NCBI GenBank assembly: GCA_024680925.1 | Contig: JAILBM010000350.1 | Span: 1 to 40,686, forward strand | Length of the DNA: 40,686 bases | From: Butyrivibrio sp. | Lineage (GTDB): Bacteria; Bacillota; Clostridia; Lachnospirales; Lachnospiraceae | Direction of reading: 5' to 3' | Shown here: positions 1 to 7,778 of the stretch, one piece after another | How the letters are laid out: every line of letters starts with the position of its first letter | How positions within the stretch are numbered: the stretch's first letter is position 1 | Made by a program: the position numbers and the translations under genes | Notes under the pieces: generated by a model | The model's input: only the letters and a program-made list of their open reading frames with translations | What the model was told of the DNA's origin: nothing | The model's database searches: none

Positions 1-790
1 CTATTCTGATCTTTTTACAGTCTCTTGGAGCTTTTTTACTTTTTTTACACTGTAATTTCCCTCTGGTCCATTATTCTATTCTGACCTTTTTACAGTCTCT
101 TTGAGGCTTTTTTTACACTGTAATTTCCCTCTGGTCCATTATTCTATTCTGATCTTTTTACAGTCTCTTTAGGGTTTTTTTACTTTCTTACACTGTAATT
201 TCCCTCTGATTCATTATTCTATTCTGACCTTTTTACAGTCTCTTTAGGTTTTTTTTACTTTCTTACACTGTAATTTCCCTCTGGTCCATTATTCTATTCT
301 GACCTTTTTACAGTCTCTTTGAGGCTTTTTTTACTTTTTCCACTGTAATTTTCCTCTAACCTATCAATCTATCCTTCTCTTTTTACAGTCTCTTTTTGGC
401 ATTTTCACTTTTTTCTACTGTAATTCCCCTCAAATGTGTCAATCTGCACTGACCTTTTTACAGTCTCTTTTTGGCATTTTCACTTTTTTCTACTGTAATT
501 CCCCTCAAATCTGTCAATCTATCCTGCTCTTTTTACAGTCTCTTTTTGGCATTTTCACTTTTTCCACTGTAATTTTCCTCTAACCTATCAATCTATCCTT
601 CTCTTTTTACAGTCTCTTTTTGGCATTTTCCCTTTTTCCACTGTAATTTTCCTCTAGCCTATCAATCTATCCTCCTCTTTTTACAGTCTCTTTTTGGCAT
701 TTTCACTTTTTTCCACTGTAATTCCCCTCAAATCTGTCAATCTGCAAATCTGTCAATCTGCACTGACCTTTTTACAGTCTCTTTTGGACG
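1..790. repeat. Tandem array of ~75 bp units with paired inverted arms (>=11 copies)
   Basis: The anchor CTTTTTACAG starts at 11, 86, 154, 229, 304, 379, 454, 529, 603, 677 and 768, so the spacing is 75, 68, 75, 75, 75, 75, 75, 74, 74 and 91. Each of the first ten units has a left arm TTACAGT and a right arm ACTGTAA, perfect reverse complements about 27 nt apart (15-21 and 49-55 in the first unit). The last copy lacks the right arm. Copies 1-5 share a GGTCCATTATTCTATTCTGA-type linker, while copies 6-11 have AATCTGTCAATCT or CCTATCAATCTATCC linkers. Unit 10 carries a small internal duplication (AATCTGTCAATCTGC twice). The plus strand is strongly pyrimidine rich. Stops occur in all frames and no ORF fits, so it is noncoding. 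Position 1 falls inside a unit, so the array continues to the left. Its function is unknown. Confidence 0.95.
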
Positions 791-820: not shown

Positions 821-1135
821 TTATCTATAATTATCAATATTTTCCAATCTGCTGTAAGCCAGTTTGGTATATGCATCAACCCAGCCTTTTTCCTCGGAAG
901 TAATTTGCTGCTGATCAGCACAGTAAGATAAGAAAAATTGATATTGCTTTTTGGCTTCATCATATTTCTTATCATGGTAGAGATTATCTGCAACTTCAAA
1001 TAAAGCCTTGAATCTCATTGGATGATCCGGATTATCATTAAAAAATTGCTGATATATCTTTGCTGACAATTTATAATCACCAATTTTCTGATATTCATTT
1101 GCCTGTATTAATTCCTCAGTAACTAAGTTATTCAT
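821..1135 (-). CDS. Small TPR-repeat protein
   Basis: This 104-residue protein is all helical in appearance. It has two consecutive tetratricopeptide-like repeats, roughly residues 15-45 (GDYKLSAKIYQQFF) and 48-80 (YHDKKYDEAKKQYQFFL). TPR domains mediate protein-protein contacts, and there is no signal peptide or membrane segment, so a cytoplasmic adaptor is likely. The ATG is preceded by GAAGGG about 8 nt upstream, which supports the start. The gene reads toward the repeat array, which begins about 30 bp after its stop, so transcripts could run into the array. The size is short for a TPR protein. It may be a remnant of a longer one, but nothing in the flanks restores a longer frame. Confidence 0.7.
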   Translation of the reverse strand: MNNLVTEELIQANEYQKIGDYKLSAKIYQQFFNDNPDHPMRFKALFEVADNLYHDKKYDEAKKQYQFFLSYCADQQQITSEEKGWVDAYTKLAYSRLENIDNYR

Positions 1136-2127: not shown

Positions 2128-5100
2128 TTATCCAAACAAATCAAAAAGAGAAATCTGGTTACTTTCAGGGATATCTCCAAGAAGTCCCATATTAGCCATC
2201 TTTTCTATTACTGCCTGAGGACACTTTGTTCTTTCTCTGAAATCATCCCTTGAAAGGAACGGGCCGTCCTTGGCTGCTTCAACTACCGCATCGGCAGCTT
2301 TTTCACCCATACCGTCAATACTGTTAAGAGCAGGCATGATCTTATCTCCAATAACCTGGAAGGATCTTGACTGAACCTTAAAAATATCTATAGGAACAAA
2401 TTCTATTCCACGTTCATACATCTCTTCTACAAGACGCATATCATAAAGCTCATTCTGCTCGGCATTGGACAAAGAGTCTTTTCTGCTTCTGTACTCATTC
2501 ATAATGCCTCGAAGGTGGGCTTCGCCCTGACACATATGCTCATAGTTAAAAGCTTTGGCTCTTATACTAAACCAGGCAGCATAAAAAGCCTGTGGAATAT
2601 AGGCTTTAAAATATGCAATACGCCATGCCATCATAACGTAAGCTGCAGCATGAGCCTTAGGGAACATGTAAGCTATTTTTTCACAAGACCAGATATACCA
2701 GTCAGGTACACCGTGATCTATCATGTCCTGCTTCCAGGTCGGCCAGTTGCCTTCCTTGCCCTTGGCAACTTTACCTTTACGAACAGCCTCCATGATCTTG
2801 AAGGATTCTGATGGATCAAGTCCCTTCTGGATCAGATAGATCATAATGTCATCACGAGTACAAATAGCTGTATCGATAGTAGCCTTTCCTTCCTGGATAA
2901 GGGTCTGGGCATTTCCAAGCCATACATCCGTACCATGGGCAAGACCTGCAATACGAATAAGGTGAGAAAAGGTTGTTGGCTTGGCATCAATAACCATCTG
3001 CATGGCAAAATCGGTACCAAACTCCGGAAGTCCAAGGCATCCCAGCTTTGTACCACCAATTTGCTCAGGAGTTATATTAAGAGCATCTGTATTCATAAAC
3101 AGGCTCATAACGTTTTTATCATCCAAAGGAACTGTCTTAGGGTCAAGACCTGTACAATCCTGAAGAAAACGAATCATGGTAGGATCATCATGGCCCAGAA
3201 TATCGAGTTTCAACAGGTTGTGGTCGATTGAGTGATAATCGTAATGAGTCGTTATGGTAGCCGTTGTCATATCATTGGCAGGATGCTGTACAGGGGTAAA
3301 AGAGTTAATGTCCTCACCCACAGGTAATACTATAATTCCTCCGGGATGCTGACCTGTACCTCTTCTTACTCCTACAAGTCCCTGTAATACTCTGTTTATT
3401 TCACACTTTCGTTTACTAAGTCCGATTCCATCATAGTACTTTTTGACATAACCATAAGCTGTTTTGTCTGCAAGACCTGCTATAGTTCCTGCACGGAAGG
3501 TCTGTTCATCACCAAAAATAACTTTAGTATAGTTATGTGCTTTAGACTGGTACTCACCGGAGAAGTTAAGGTCAATATCAGGCTCTTTATCTCCCTTAAA
3601 TCCCAGGAAGGTTTCGAAAGGAATATCAAACCCATCCTTTATCATCATAGCTCCGCATTTCGGACATCTCTTATCAGGCATATCACATCCTGAATTTCCG
3701 CCATAGGCTTTGACTTCTTCCGAATCAAAATCACTATACTTACATTTCGGACATACATAGTGAGGGCTCAGGGAATTAACTTCCGTAATACCTGAAGTAA
3801 ATGCCACGAAAGAAGAACCTACAGATCCACGGGAACCAACCAGATATCCGTCCTCATTGGATTTCCAAACCAGCTTCTGGGCAATAATGTACATAACCGC
3901 AAATCCGTTTTTGATAATGGAATTAAGTTCTCTTTCCAGTCGTTCCTGAACTATAGGCGGAAGCTCTTCACCGTAGATTTCATGAGCCTTGTCATAACAA
4001 ATCTTTGTAAGAATCTCATCACTGTTTTCAATAACAGGAGGACATTTATCAGGTCTTACCGGAGATATGCTCTCACACATATCCAGAATCTTTCTGGTAT
4101 TGGTGATTACCACCTCTTCTGCCTTATCACTTCCAAGATAATCGAACTCTCCCAGCATCTCCTCTGTAGTTCTAAGATACAAAGGCGCAGGAGATTCATC
4201 ATCAAAGCCTCGTCCCGCCTGAATAATGGTACGATATATCTCATCGCTTGGATTTAAAAAGTGAGAGTCACAGGTTGCAACTACAGGCTTATTAAACTGT
4301 TCTCCAAGCTTTACTATTTTTTTATTAATTTCTCTTATATCATCATCAGAATGTATGTCATCATATCTGTCTGAATCCACCATGAAATGGTTATTGCCTA
4401 TAGGCTGAATTTCCAGATAATCATAGAAATTCACCAGCTTTGCAATCTCTTCATCCGGTCTTCCCTCTACCACTGCTCCGTAGAGTTCTCCTGCACAGCA
4501 GGCACTTCCCACAATAATACCTTCACGATATTTCATAAGCTCGCTCTTTGGGATAAGAGGAAACCTGTGAAAATACTTTACATGCGAATTACTTACAAGA
4601 GTATACAGATTAACTCTTCCAAGTGTATTCTTGGCAAGCAAAATACAGTGATGAGGACGAAGATGCCTTACAGTCTGAGGTGTGGATACACCAAGGGCAT
4701 TAACGTCTGTTAAAGTCACACAGTTTTTTTCCTTGAGCATAGGTAAGAACTTAAGGAAAATAAGAGCTGTACACTCAGCATCATCTACAGCTCTGTGATG
4801 GTGTTCAAGAACTACATTTAAAGTCTTGGCTACGGCATCAAGAGTATGCTTTGCCTGTAACGGAAAAAATGTTCTTGAAAGACCCAGGGTATCTACGGTT
4901 GTGTAATCTGCAGGAATTCCAAGATTTCTGCAGTTCTGATTTATAAAGCTGATATCAAAGGCAACATTATGTCCTACAATAACGCAGTCCTTACAAAATT
5001 CCACAAACCTTGGAAGTATCACATCGATGGAAGGTGCATTCATAACCATTTCATCCGTAATACTTGTAAGCTTGGTGATTTTAAAAGGAATTGGAACCTT

Positions 5101-6702
5101 AGGATTTACAAATTCGGAAAATCTGTCTATGATCTGTCCGCTTTTTACTTTAACGGCACCAATTTCTATTATTCTGTTTCTAAGAGGCGAAAAACCTGTT
5201 GTCTCAATATCAAATACGACGTAGGTACTGTCATCTACAGATTGTTTCTTGTCATTAACAACAATTTCCTTAAGGTCATCTACAAGATATGCTTCTACAC
5301 CCAGTATCAGCTTAAAGAAATCCTGTCTGTCGGGATTTTCTTCACCGGCTTCCTTACGTGCCTTCTTCTCGGCACTCCACAGATCATCCCATACATGATT
5401 GGCTTCTGTAAGAGCCTGAACAACGCCATGGTCTGTTATGGCAATTCCGGGCATTCCCCACTTATAAGCCTGTTTAACAATATCCTTAACTTCACTTACA
5501 CCATCCATATCACTCATTTTGGTATGGCAGTGCAGCTCTACTCTTTTTACAGGAGCATTATCTGATCTCTTTACCGTAAAATCAGGAATTTTCTTAACTC
5601 CCACTACAGAGCCTATGGTAAGCTCATGATCGAATTTATCAATCATGGTTATTCCCTTAAGCTTAATAAATGCACCTTTCTTGATATTTTTTTCAAGTTC
5701 GGGCACATCTTCTGTATGGGTGAACATTTTAACCGTAATGGTGTCTGTAAAATCAGTCACATCAAAAATAAGAATGGTCTTTTCATTTCTGATATCTCTC
5801 TTATCATAGGCTATAACCTGGCCGTGAACTGTTACTTCACCCATTTCACCTATTATCTCAGACATCTTGATTGTTTCATCATCGAAATCTCTGCCAAAAA
5901 CGACATCGGGATTATCGGACTTTTTGAAGCCTCCCCCAAAACCGCTGCGAGGTTTCCATTTGCTCTTATCAAAGGTTTTTCCACCACCAAAGCCTGAAGA
6001 GGAGCCCTGTTTTCCACCATTTGAATCAGATGAAGGTGCCAAAGCTTTATTTTCTGCAGCTTTTGCAGTTCCTTCTTTTGCCTCTTTTTTCTCAAGAGCC
6101 TGCTTTTTTCTTTCCTCGGATTTTTGCTCGGCAGCTTCGATCCTGGCAGCAATTCTGGCTGATTCAGCAGTGTAATCAGGAGTGTCTTTTTTCTTTTCAA
6201 CCTCTTTAAACTGCGCAGAAAGATTAACATTTAAGCCACAGCGCTCATTCATAACCTTATCAAGAATCCTCATAATATCCTGGGATTTCTGATTGGCTAC
6301 AACAGTATCCTCCATAATGACTATCATTTCTTTTTCCGAAGGATACTCAAAATCAGCATTGTTAAGAATTACATACTCTATTGGGTCATACTCCTTGATT
6401 TCCTCAAAGAGACTCTCCTTATAGATTTCCATCAGCGTCTTTGGATTATATTGCGCTGACAGGTTAAACTTTTCATATATTTTTATAGTCAGATCTTCAT
6501 TAACAAAGAACTGCTTTTTTATCTCTTTTTCAGTCTTATTTATATAGGACTTATCAATAAGAACATTGCTTGATAAATAAATACGGATATAATCCTGCTT
6601 TCTTGTGGTGGAAACCTTGTCAATATTGGTTTCCTGCATTATATCCTTTAAATTCCCCTCTAATTTGAGTGTAGGGAACACATCAAAAAAAGCTTTAGCC
6701 AT
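2128..6702 (-). CDS. polC: DNA polymerase III PolC-type alpha subunit
   Basis: This is the replicative polymerase of low-GC Gram-positives, with built-in 3'-5' proofreading. In order it has an N-terminal domain; a Lys/Ala/Gly-rich low-complexity linker (about 180-265, ending in GFGGG repeats); an OB-fold; a PHP domain (ELHCHTKMSDMDG near 392) interrupted by a DEDDh exonuclease (FDIETTGFSP near 496); a zinc motif (CPKC...CPKC near 985); the polymerase core with PDIDLNFS near 1040; and a C-terminal clamp-binding tail (QISLFDLFG). The ORF track starts at a TTG at 6720, but the ATG at 6702 has GAGGG 4 nt upstream and begins MAKAFFDVFP, so 1524 residues is preferred. It follows ispG with a 14 bp gap and is the last gene of the conserved cluster. 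Confidence 0.97.
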   Translation of the reverse strand: MAKAFFDVFPTLKLEGNLKDIMQETNIDKVSTTRKQDYIRIYLSSNVLIDKSYINKTEKEIKKQFFVNEDLTIKIYEKFNLSAQYNPKTLMEIYKESLFEEIKEYDPIEYVILNNADFEYPSEKEMIVIMEDTVVANQKSQDIMRILDKVMNERCGLNVNLSAQFKEVEKKKDTPDYTAESARIAARIEAAEQKSEERKKQALEKKEAKEGTAKAAENKALAPSSDSNGGKQGSSSGFGGGKTFDKSKWKPRSGFGGGFKKSDNPDVVFGRDFDDETIKMSEIIGEMGEVTVHGQVIAYDKRDIRNEKTILIFDVTDFTDTITVKMFTHTEDVPELEKNIKKGAFIKLKGITMIDKFDHELTIGSVVGVKKIPDFTVKRSDNAPVKRVELHCHTKMSDMDGVSEVKDIVKQAYKWGMPGIAITDHGVVQALTEANHVWDDLWSAEKKARKEAGEENPDRQDFFKLILGVEAYLVDDLKEIVVNDKKQSVDDSTYVVFDIETTGFSPLRNRIIEIGAVKVKSGQIIDRFSEFVNPKVPIPFKITKLTSITDEMVMNAPSIDVILPRFVEFCKDCVIVGHNVAFDISFINQNCRNLGIPADYTTVDTLGLSRTFFPLQAKHTLDAVAKTLNVVLEHHHRAVDDAECTALIFLKFLPMLKEKNCVTLTDVNALGVSTPQTVRHLRPHHCILLAKNTLGRVNLYTLVSNSHVKYFHRFPLIPKSELMKYREGIIVGSACCAGELYGAVVEGRPDEEIAKLVNFYDYLEIQPIGNNHFMVDSDRYDDIHSDDDIREINKKIVKLGEQFNKPVVATCDSHFLNPSDEIYRTIIQAGRGFDDESPAPLYLRTTEEMLGEFDYLGSDKAEEVVITNTRKILDMCESISPVRPDKCPPVIENSDEILTKICYDKAHEIYGEELPPIVQERLERELNSIIKNGFAVMYIIAQKLVWKSNEDGYLVGSRGSVGSSFVAFTSGITEVNSLSPHYVCPKCKYSDFDSEEVKAYGGNSGCDMPDKRCPKCGAMMIKDGFDIPFETFLGFKGDKEPDIDLNFSGEYQSKAHNYTKVIFGDEQTFRAGTIAGLADKTAYGYVKKYYDGIGLSKRKCEINRVLQGLVGVRRGTGQHPGGIIVLPVGEDINSFTPVQHPANDMTTATITTHYDYHSIDHNLLKLDILGHDDPTMIRFLQDCTGLDPKTVPLDDKNVMSLFMNTDALNITPEQIGGTKLGCLGLPEFGTDFAMQMVIDAKPTTFSHLIRIAGLAHGTDVWLGNAQTLIQEGKATIDTAICTRDDIMIYLIQKGLDPSESFKIMEAVRKGKVAKGKEGNWPTWKQDMIDHGVPDWYIWSCEKIAYMFPKAHAAAYVMMAWRIAYFKAYIPQAFYAAWFSIRAKAFNYEHMCQGEAHLRGIMNEYRSRKDSLSNAEQNELYDMRLVEEMYERGIEFVPIDIFKVQSRSFQVIGDKIMPALNSIDGMGEKAADAVVEAAKDGPFLSRDDFRERTKCPQAVIEKMANMGLLGDIPESNQISLFDLFG

Positions 6703-6716
6703 ACTTCCCTCTTTAA

Positions 6717-7778
6717 TCAATCATTCCAATGGTCCAGCTCGTACTTAAGTGTATCTACGAATTCCTCTTCTTTAACCTTGCGAACAACTTCGCCGTGTTT
6801 TATAAGAAGGCCTTCGCCAACACCACCCGCTATACCAAGATCAGCTTCCTTGGCTTCCCCGGGTCCGTTTACGGCACAGCCCATAACAGCTACCTTAATA
6901 TCGAGATTCTCATATTGCTGCACCATGGTTTCAACGCGGTTTGCAAGTCCGATGAGATCAATCTTGGTTCTTCCGCAGGTCGGGCAGGAAACAACCTCTA
7001 TGCCGCCCTTTCTAAGTCCAAGAGTTCTAAGTATTGTTTTGGCAGTTTTGATTTCTTCACAAGGATCTCCTGAAAGAGAAACTCTTATGGTATCGCCTAT
7101 GCCTTCATTTAAGATAATTCCAAGTCCTACGGAAGACTTTATATTTCCACCGTAGAGTGTTCCTGCTTCTGTAATACCTACATGAAGAGGATAATTGGTC
7201 TGTTTTGCAAGAACCTCATGAGCCTTTACACATAACATTACATTGGAAGATTTGATACTGATGACAAGATTGTCATAACCCATATCCTCAATGATATGAA
7301 CCTTATCCAGAGCGCTCTCACAAAGACCTTCTGCTGTAACACCGCCATATTTTTCCACAAGTTCCTTTTCCAAAGAGCCACTATTTACACCTACTCTGAT
7401 AGGTATATTTCTCTCCCTGGCACAGTTAACAACAGCGGCAATTTTTTCTTTGCTGCCTATATTTCCGGGATTTATACGGATCTTATCCGCACCGTTTTCC
7501 ATGGCAGCTATGGCCATCTTATAGTCGAAATGTATATCAGCTACCAGTGGAATATGAATCTGCTTTTTGATCTCCTTAACAGCCTCTGCAGCCTCCTGTG
7601 TAGGGACAGTGCATCTTATGATGTCACAGCCTGCTGCTTCAAGCTTAAGAATCTGATCTACCGTAGCCTTAACATCCTCAGTCCTTGTATTGGTCATGGA
7701 CTGGATCATGATAGGGTTACCACCGCCGATTACTTTATTTCCAATATGTATTACCTTTGTATTATCTCTAATAGCCAT
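6717..7778 (-). CDS. ispG: 4-hydroxy-3-methylbut-2-enyl diphosphate synthase
   Basis: This 353-residue [4Fe-4S] enzyme carries out the penultimate step of the MEP isoprenoid pathway, converting 2-C-methyl-D-erythritol 2,4-cyclodiphosphate to HMBPP. The N-terminal TIM-barrel half (IMIQSMTNT near the start, ADIHFDYKMA, IRINPGNIG) is followed by the C-terminal cluster-binding half with CPTCGRTK and GCAVNGPGEA, whose cysteines ligate the cluster. The short bacterial form without the plant insertion fits this length. The ATG has AGGAG 7-8 nt upstream. It sits 15 bp after rseP and just before polC. With dxr in the same cluster it provides two MEP pathway steps that supply the isoprenoid precursors used by uppS. 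Confidence 0.97.
   Translation of the reverse strand: MAIRDNTKVIHIGNKVIGGGNPIMIQSMTNTRTEDVKATVDQILKLEAAGCDIIRCTVPTQEAAEAVKEIKKQIHIPLVADIHFDYKMAIAAMENGADKIRINPGNIGSKEKIAAVVNCARERNIPIRVGVNSGSLEKELVEKYGGVTAEGLCESALDKVHIIEDMGYDNLVISIKSSNVMLCVKAHEVLAKQTNYPLHVGITEAGTLYGGNIKSSVGLGIILNEGIGDTIRVSLSGDPCEEIKTAKTILRTLGLRKGGIEVVSCPTCGRTKIDLIGLANRVETMVQQYENLDIKVAVMGCAVNGPGEAKEADLGIAGGVGEGLLIKHGEVVRKVKEEEFVDTLKYELDHWND

Follow-up and report, generated by a model that had tools for sequence, protein, structure and literature searches.

The first 790 nucleotides of a Butyrivibrio contig carry a tandem repeat in which short complementary arms alternate with diverged linkers. What kind of repeat this is, and whether its arms are kept as a hairpin, as paired protein sites or simply through slippage, is the question addressed here. 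The window that was analysed (the whole stretch of 40,686 nucleotides) is the entire contig C362 of a Butyrivibrio MAG of 449 contigs, which is 88.5% complete with 7.3% contamination and has its closest named relatives in Butyrivibrio.

Architecture and setting of the array

The features of the window are listed in Table 1. TRF reported a period of 75 bp with 10 copies and a score of 770 at positions 1-743. The left arm TTTTTACAGTCTCTTT was found in 11 copies with at most one mismatch, and 10 ATTACAG...CTGTAA units were counted. Written on the A-rich strand, the type unit is GGRAATTACAG-N28/29-CTGTAAAAAG, followed by an outer gap of about 34 bp. The mean pairwise divergence among 6 full units was 0.09 for the left arm with its flank and 0.00 for CTGTAAAAAG, compared with 0.21 for the inner and 0.31 for the outer linker. 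Units of 74 and 75 bp are intermixed and the array therefore keeps no long reading frame; its AT skew is -0.49. The original prediction, made from the letters of this contig, was thus correct in describing 11 left and 10 right arms at regular spacing, linkers that diverge faster than the arms, a strong strand bias and the lack of an ORF.

A coding repeat was ruled out, since the array periods (74, 52, 53 and 55 bp, including the arrays of other species described below) are not divisible by three. A CRISPR array was ruled out as well because the linkers are repeated and not unique spacers, and no cas genes were present among the annotated genes flanking the arrays.

The array had also been predicted to run past the left edge of the window. 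This edge is the contig end, and the 3' end of contig C275 has three additional array units. C275 encodes tRNA-Glu and rimP-nusA, and the window encodes polC. From the gene order and the matching units we infer that C362 and C275 join, and that the array probably fills the gap from polC to tRNA-Glu and rimP. The assembly broke at this gap because of the array. Elsewhere in the window an 81-bp tandem duplication (1390-1552, 95% matches) lies within a 163-aa ORF (1337-1828).

Table 1. Positions of the array, of selected units and of the neighbouring genes in the window
Feature	Position	Strand	Basis
Tandem array of 10 full units and one terminal half-site	1..790	-	TRF, unit table, spacing
Shortened unit, inner spacing reduced by 7 bp, local period 68	83..130	-	
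Representative unit with both arms, ATTACAGT ... ACTGTAAAAA	376..430	-	
16-bp duplication (729-762), then outermost single half-site (769-784)	729..784	-	TRF and arm search
104-aa ORF with weak TPR similarity, between array and polC	821..1135	-	
polC (DNA polymerase III PolC); with C275 it sets the array between polC and tRNA-Glu/rimP	2128..6720	-	Pfam

Recurrence and turnover of the arrays

The search of the unit in related genomes that had been proposed with the prediction showed that the arms and their spacing recur at further loci of the source genome, and that analogous arrays built from different arms exist in other species. In the source genome the identical arm pair and spacing were found on C9 (6 units), C22 (4 units) and C185 (5 units). 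The consensus units of the four arrays have arms that are 100% identical and linker segments that are 46-67% identical, with an inner spacing of 34-35 bp and an outer spacing of about 34 bp almost throughout. The extended arm pattern gave 24 matches inside the four arrays and one isolated match. Among 78 other Butyrivibrio genomes, the source arm pattern had single matches in 8 and formed no array.

Arrays were sought at 34 Butyrivibrio RimP loci, and each arm pair was then used for genome searches. Most of these loci had no array, but polC-rimP arrays with other arms were present in VCB2006, INlla18, RUG513 and INlla14. The polC-rimP position is common to all four array-bearing species, or five when INlla18 is included. 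In INlla14 the arm is RTSATGCA with a spacing of 29-30 + 14 (arm start to arm start + outer gap), in VCB2006 it is GKTATTAC with 21 + 23 and in RUG513 CTRCCTAT with 27 + 19/20. Arrays occur at 6-8 or more loci in each of these three genomes. The searches gave 31 matches of GTGATGC...GCATCAC in INlla14 with 0 control matches, 13 of GKTATTAC...GTAATAMC in VCB2006 and 19 of CTACCTA...TAGGTAG in RUG513, the genomes searched having been assigned to these three strains by their identical arrays. Each arm pair was found at many loci of its own genome and at chance level in nearly all other genomes searched. Arm pairs at array spacing fell almost exclusively inside arrays and are therefore unlike a regulon of single promoter sites.

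Some further repeats were seen on the way. Two or three unit types alternate in INlla14 (L180, L182, L184 and L185) with super-periods of 103 or 156 bp, as in eukaryotic satellites. Simple tandem repeats directly adjoin two arrays, the 14-bp GTAAGAAAAATAAT on C9 (L003 1364-1418) and 7-bp AATTTGA x16 in the cdsA-dxr gap of INlla14 (L404). Upstream of rimP, an Acetatifactor MAG has a related-looking two-unit array, TTACGCCA...TGGCGTAA, with a period of 52, and the uncultured Butyrivibrio SRR1206671 bin.68 has a possible GGTACCAC/GTGGTACC array at a contig end (L044 1-170). The 91-bp repeats of Lachnospiraceae RGIG3002 (L080 5539-5776), with several hairpin-like inverted stretches, are probably a different element, and a tandem repeat of 59 bp close to the polC end in RUG513 (L041 4865-4976) is unrelated to the half-site array. 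Viral contigs scanned with three array patterns contained single chance matches only and no arrays, and a distant blastn against a plasmid collection gave no match. In the open-access literature searched we found no description of such Butyrivibrio repeats.

Between arrays of one genome, arm identity was 0.83-1.00 versus 0.28-0.67 for the linkers in the four genomes. The spacing is nearly constant in each genome, with outer gaps almost invariant and inner gaps varying by about 1 bp. In RUG513 and the source genome the linker similarity between arrays exceeded the shuffled level, so that the arm identity there goes back in part to common descent. A neutral minisatellite, propagated by slippage and gene conversion and with conversion alone keeping its arms alike, would account for the period-homogeneous units, the higher-order repeats of 103 and 156 bp in INlla14 and the simple repeats beside two arrays. 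Yet the same units keep arms and spacing while their linkers are replaced in four genomes, and gene conversion would have made the linkers uniform as well. The original prediction had reserved this explanation for arms that mutate as freely as linkers, whereas the arms are kept while the linkers diverge, and we regard it as very unlikely.

The arrays are quickly gained or lost, as two comparisons indicate. SIG348, the closest relative of the source genome (96% over RimP+NusA), has no array at rimP, and arrays in the cdsA-dxr and livJ-livH gaps (977 and 929 bp) are present in INlla14 only, the corresponding gaps of the other genomes examined, including VCB2006, being array-free and 1-409 bp long. 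INlla14 and VCB2006 fall into one tight group of the RimP+NusA tree (SH-aLRT 97) and share 92% identity in DXR. The arms and spacing of these near-sisters are nevertheless entirely different, and hence the arm code turns over in its entirety. VCB2006 and INlla18 have common arms, yet they are not sisters in this tree.

Pairing of the arms, transcription and DNA phasing

The arrays are intergenic and their neighbours are ordinary genes that vary by locus (polC, rimP, livJ/livH, cdsA/dxr, mfd, ptsI, flgK/flgL, fucose-type genes, carB and others). Several arrays are contained in apparent operons (livJ-livH, cdsA-dxr and flgK-flgL), and several others sit in convergent or divergent gaps. Thirteen arrays have co-directional neighbours, and the coding strand is A-rich in each of them, which fits transcription through the array or a leading-strand bias equally well.

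The operon positions and the coding-strand rule would agree with a transcribed structured RNA, whose arms would pair within mRNA leaders or intercistronic regions as hairpins, with a function in stability or attenuation or as a protein sponge. Strong folds were indeed obtained for a single unit of INlla14 (z -4.8) and for the flg array (z -14). The window unit, however, formed a weak stem of -4.9 kcal/mol (z -1.6), the source-genome units folded weakly in two arrays (z -1.6 to -1.8), and Rfam had no match to the array. The arrays in convergent or divergent gaps do not fit this explanation, and a hairpin needs no identical arm sequence across loci.

Selection on pairing should make the variable arm positions covary. 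In covariation tests, for which distinct units were counted per array with shared descent uncorrected, two variable arm positions of VCB2006 paired less than shuffled ones (0.995 and 0.996 of the shuffles reached the observed pairing), the variable position of RUG513 was independent with no compensatory excess (P 0.28), and INlla14 had a weak compensatory excess at one arm position (P 0.011). The variable arm positions thus change largely independently and not in a compensatory manner, which weakens the hairpin as the conserved feature, and a structured RNA is improbable. The arms rather appear, from their sequence variation, to act as two independent inverted half-sites that are often slightly different in form. 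Within a unit of the VCB2006 arrays (L187-L192) one arm tends to GGTATTACA and the other to GTTATTACT, an asymmetry opposite to pairing. The original prediction had suggested selection on a hairpin or on paired protein sites instead of slippage, and had proposed a covariance analysis of the arms. The protein sites are favoured by the arm identity of 83-100% next to linkers of 28-67% and by the near-fixed spacing, whereas the hairpin is not, given the weak stem and the lack of general covariation.

The array periods of 52, 53, 54.5 and 74.5 bp correspond to about 5 or 7 helical turns. In an exploratory analysis in which 11 harmonics were inspected, a phasing of AA/TT steps close to the helical repeat was seen for INlla14 (Fisher P 8e-5) and RUG513 (1e-3), and a weaker one for the source genome (0.024); this A-tract phasing was absent in VCB2006. 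Helical phasing of the single arms was dropped as a common rule, as the inner spacings differ (34-35, 30, 21 and 27).

A proposed binding platform and its relation to known repeats

We favour the reading that the arrays are multi-site platforms of tandem inverted half-site pairs for a putative sequence-specific DNA-binding protein, and give it a probability of about 0.52. Each unit would offer an inverted half-site pair (ATTACAG and CTGTAAA in the source genome) at fixed inner and outer spacing. The distance from unit to unit would be close to an integral number of helical turns (about 7 in the source genome and about 5 in the three other species), so that successive units would lie on one side of the DNA and might be bound cooperatively. 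The length of the A-rich linkers would matter, and perhaps their curvature, but little their sequence. One trans-acting reader of the half-sites would explain why arms and spacing are common across a genome while the linkers differ, and a change of the reader protein would explain the different arms in another species. Counted against the platform are the ordinary, locus-specific neighbours and the lack of a candidate protein; Pfam and NCBIfam annotation of the flanking genes revealed neither a shared neighbour nor a DNA-binding protein that recurs. The absent A-tract phasing in VCB2006, the coding-strand rule and the linker similarity in RUG513 and the source genome also weigh against it. The purpose may be the organisation of the chromosome or of transcription, or a self-propagation like that of BIMEs.

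Bacterial interspersed elements of the BIME type have regularly spaced sites in alternating orientation, and their inter-site segments differ between clusters (PMC2817692). The Butyrivibrio arrays resemble the BIME, REP and REPIN elements of enterobacteria, Stenotrophomonas and Pseudomonas in being extragenic, with alternating regularly spaced sites, tandem modules, strain-specific families and non-homologous inter-site segments between clusters (PMC2817692). In contrast, a REP is an imperfect palindrome of 20-40 bp with a GTAG or CGTC tag, whereas the Butyrivibrio arms are 6-11 bp long and their consensus has neither an internal palindrome nor a REP-type tag. The arrays also occur at few loci and are always long, and their spacing is fixed at about 5 or 7 helical turns. 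No RAYT (Y1 transposase) is flanked by the arms, though gaps in the MAGs leave some doubt here: PF01797 was absent in RUG513 (88% complete) and present only as a contig-end fragment in the source genome, and the Y1 genes examined in INlla14 and VCB2006 had no arms within about 1.5 kb. The arrays are therefore BIME-like in layout but are not members of the REP/RAYT family.

This layout (PMC2817692) also suits a selfish non-autonomous repeat of the BIME or REPIN type, whose units would be copied and multiplied, with no gain for the host, by a nuclease or transposase that recognises the arms. The recent lineage-specific gains at cdsA-dxr and livJ-livH in INlla14 and the weak common ancestry of the RUG513 linkers would fit as well. 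The transposase findings speak against it, as does the polC-rimP position shared between the species, and we consider such an element less likely than the platform, but more likely than a structured RNA or a neutral minisatellite.

In sopC of plasmid F and other type Ia centromere sites, short inverted repeats lie in longer tandem iterons and are bound by a sequence-specific protein (PMC5016525). The Butyrivibrio arrays are also tandem iterons each with an inverted repeat, but they are chromosomal and lie between housekeeping genes at 4 to 8 or more loci, and no par genes were found beside them (the flanks are polC, rimP, liv, dxr, mfd, flg, car and others). Their arms are 12-28 bp apart, whereas the inverted-repeat arms of sopC are nearly contiguous. 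The neisserial dRS3/RS (NIME) arrays are intergenic and consist of short inverted repeats with variable sequences between them (PMC3898611). Unlike dRS3, which is ATTCCC-N8-GGGAAT with nearly 700 copies in meningococci, the Butyrivibrio repeats have a longer spacing and an arm sequence that changes between species. BIMEs are thus closest in layout, and the sopC-type centromeres and dRS3/NIME arrays are looser parallels. The original prediction could not name the type of the array; this holds only in part, as BIMEs offer a near analogue in layout, and the pattern recurs in Butyrivibrio with species-specific arms.

The arrays resemble satellite DNA with a putative, rapidly changing binding protein. 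A tentative and rather doubtful extension is that they are a bacterial counterpart of satellite DNA, in which all arrays of a lineage would use a half-site and spacing code particular to that lineage. The code would be replaced wholesale even between near-sisters because the array and its cognate DNA-binding protein coevolve, as in centromere or PRDM9-type turnover.

The arrays explain why assemblies of rumen Butyrivibrio break at particular intergenic places. With four half-site and spacing codes in four related species at one common locus, they provide a simple handle on the putative reader protein, and they would show the exchange of a repeat family together with its reader in a bacterial chromosome between near-sister species.
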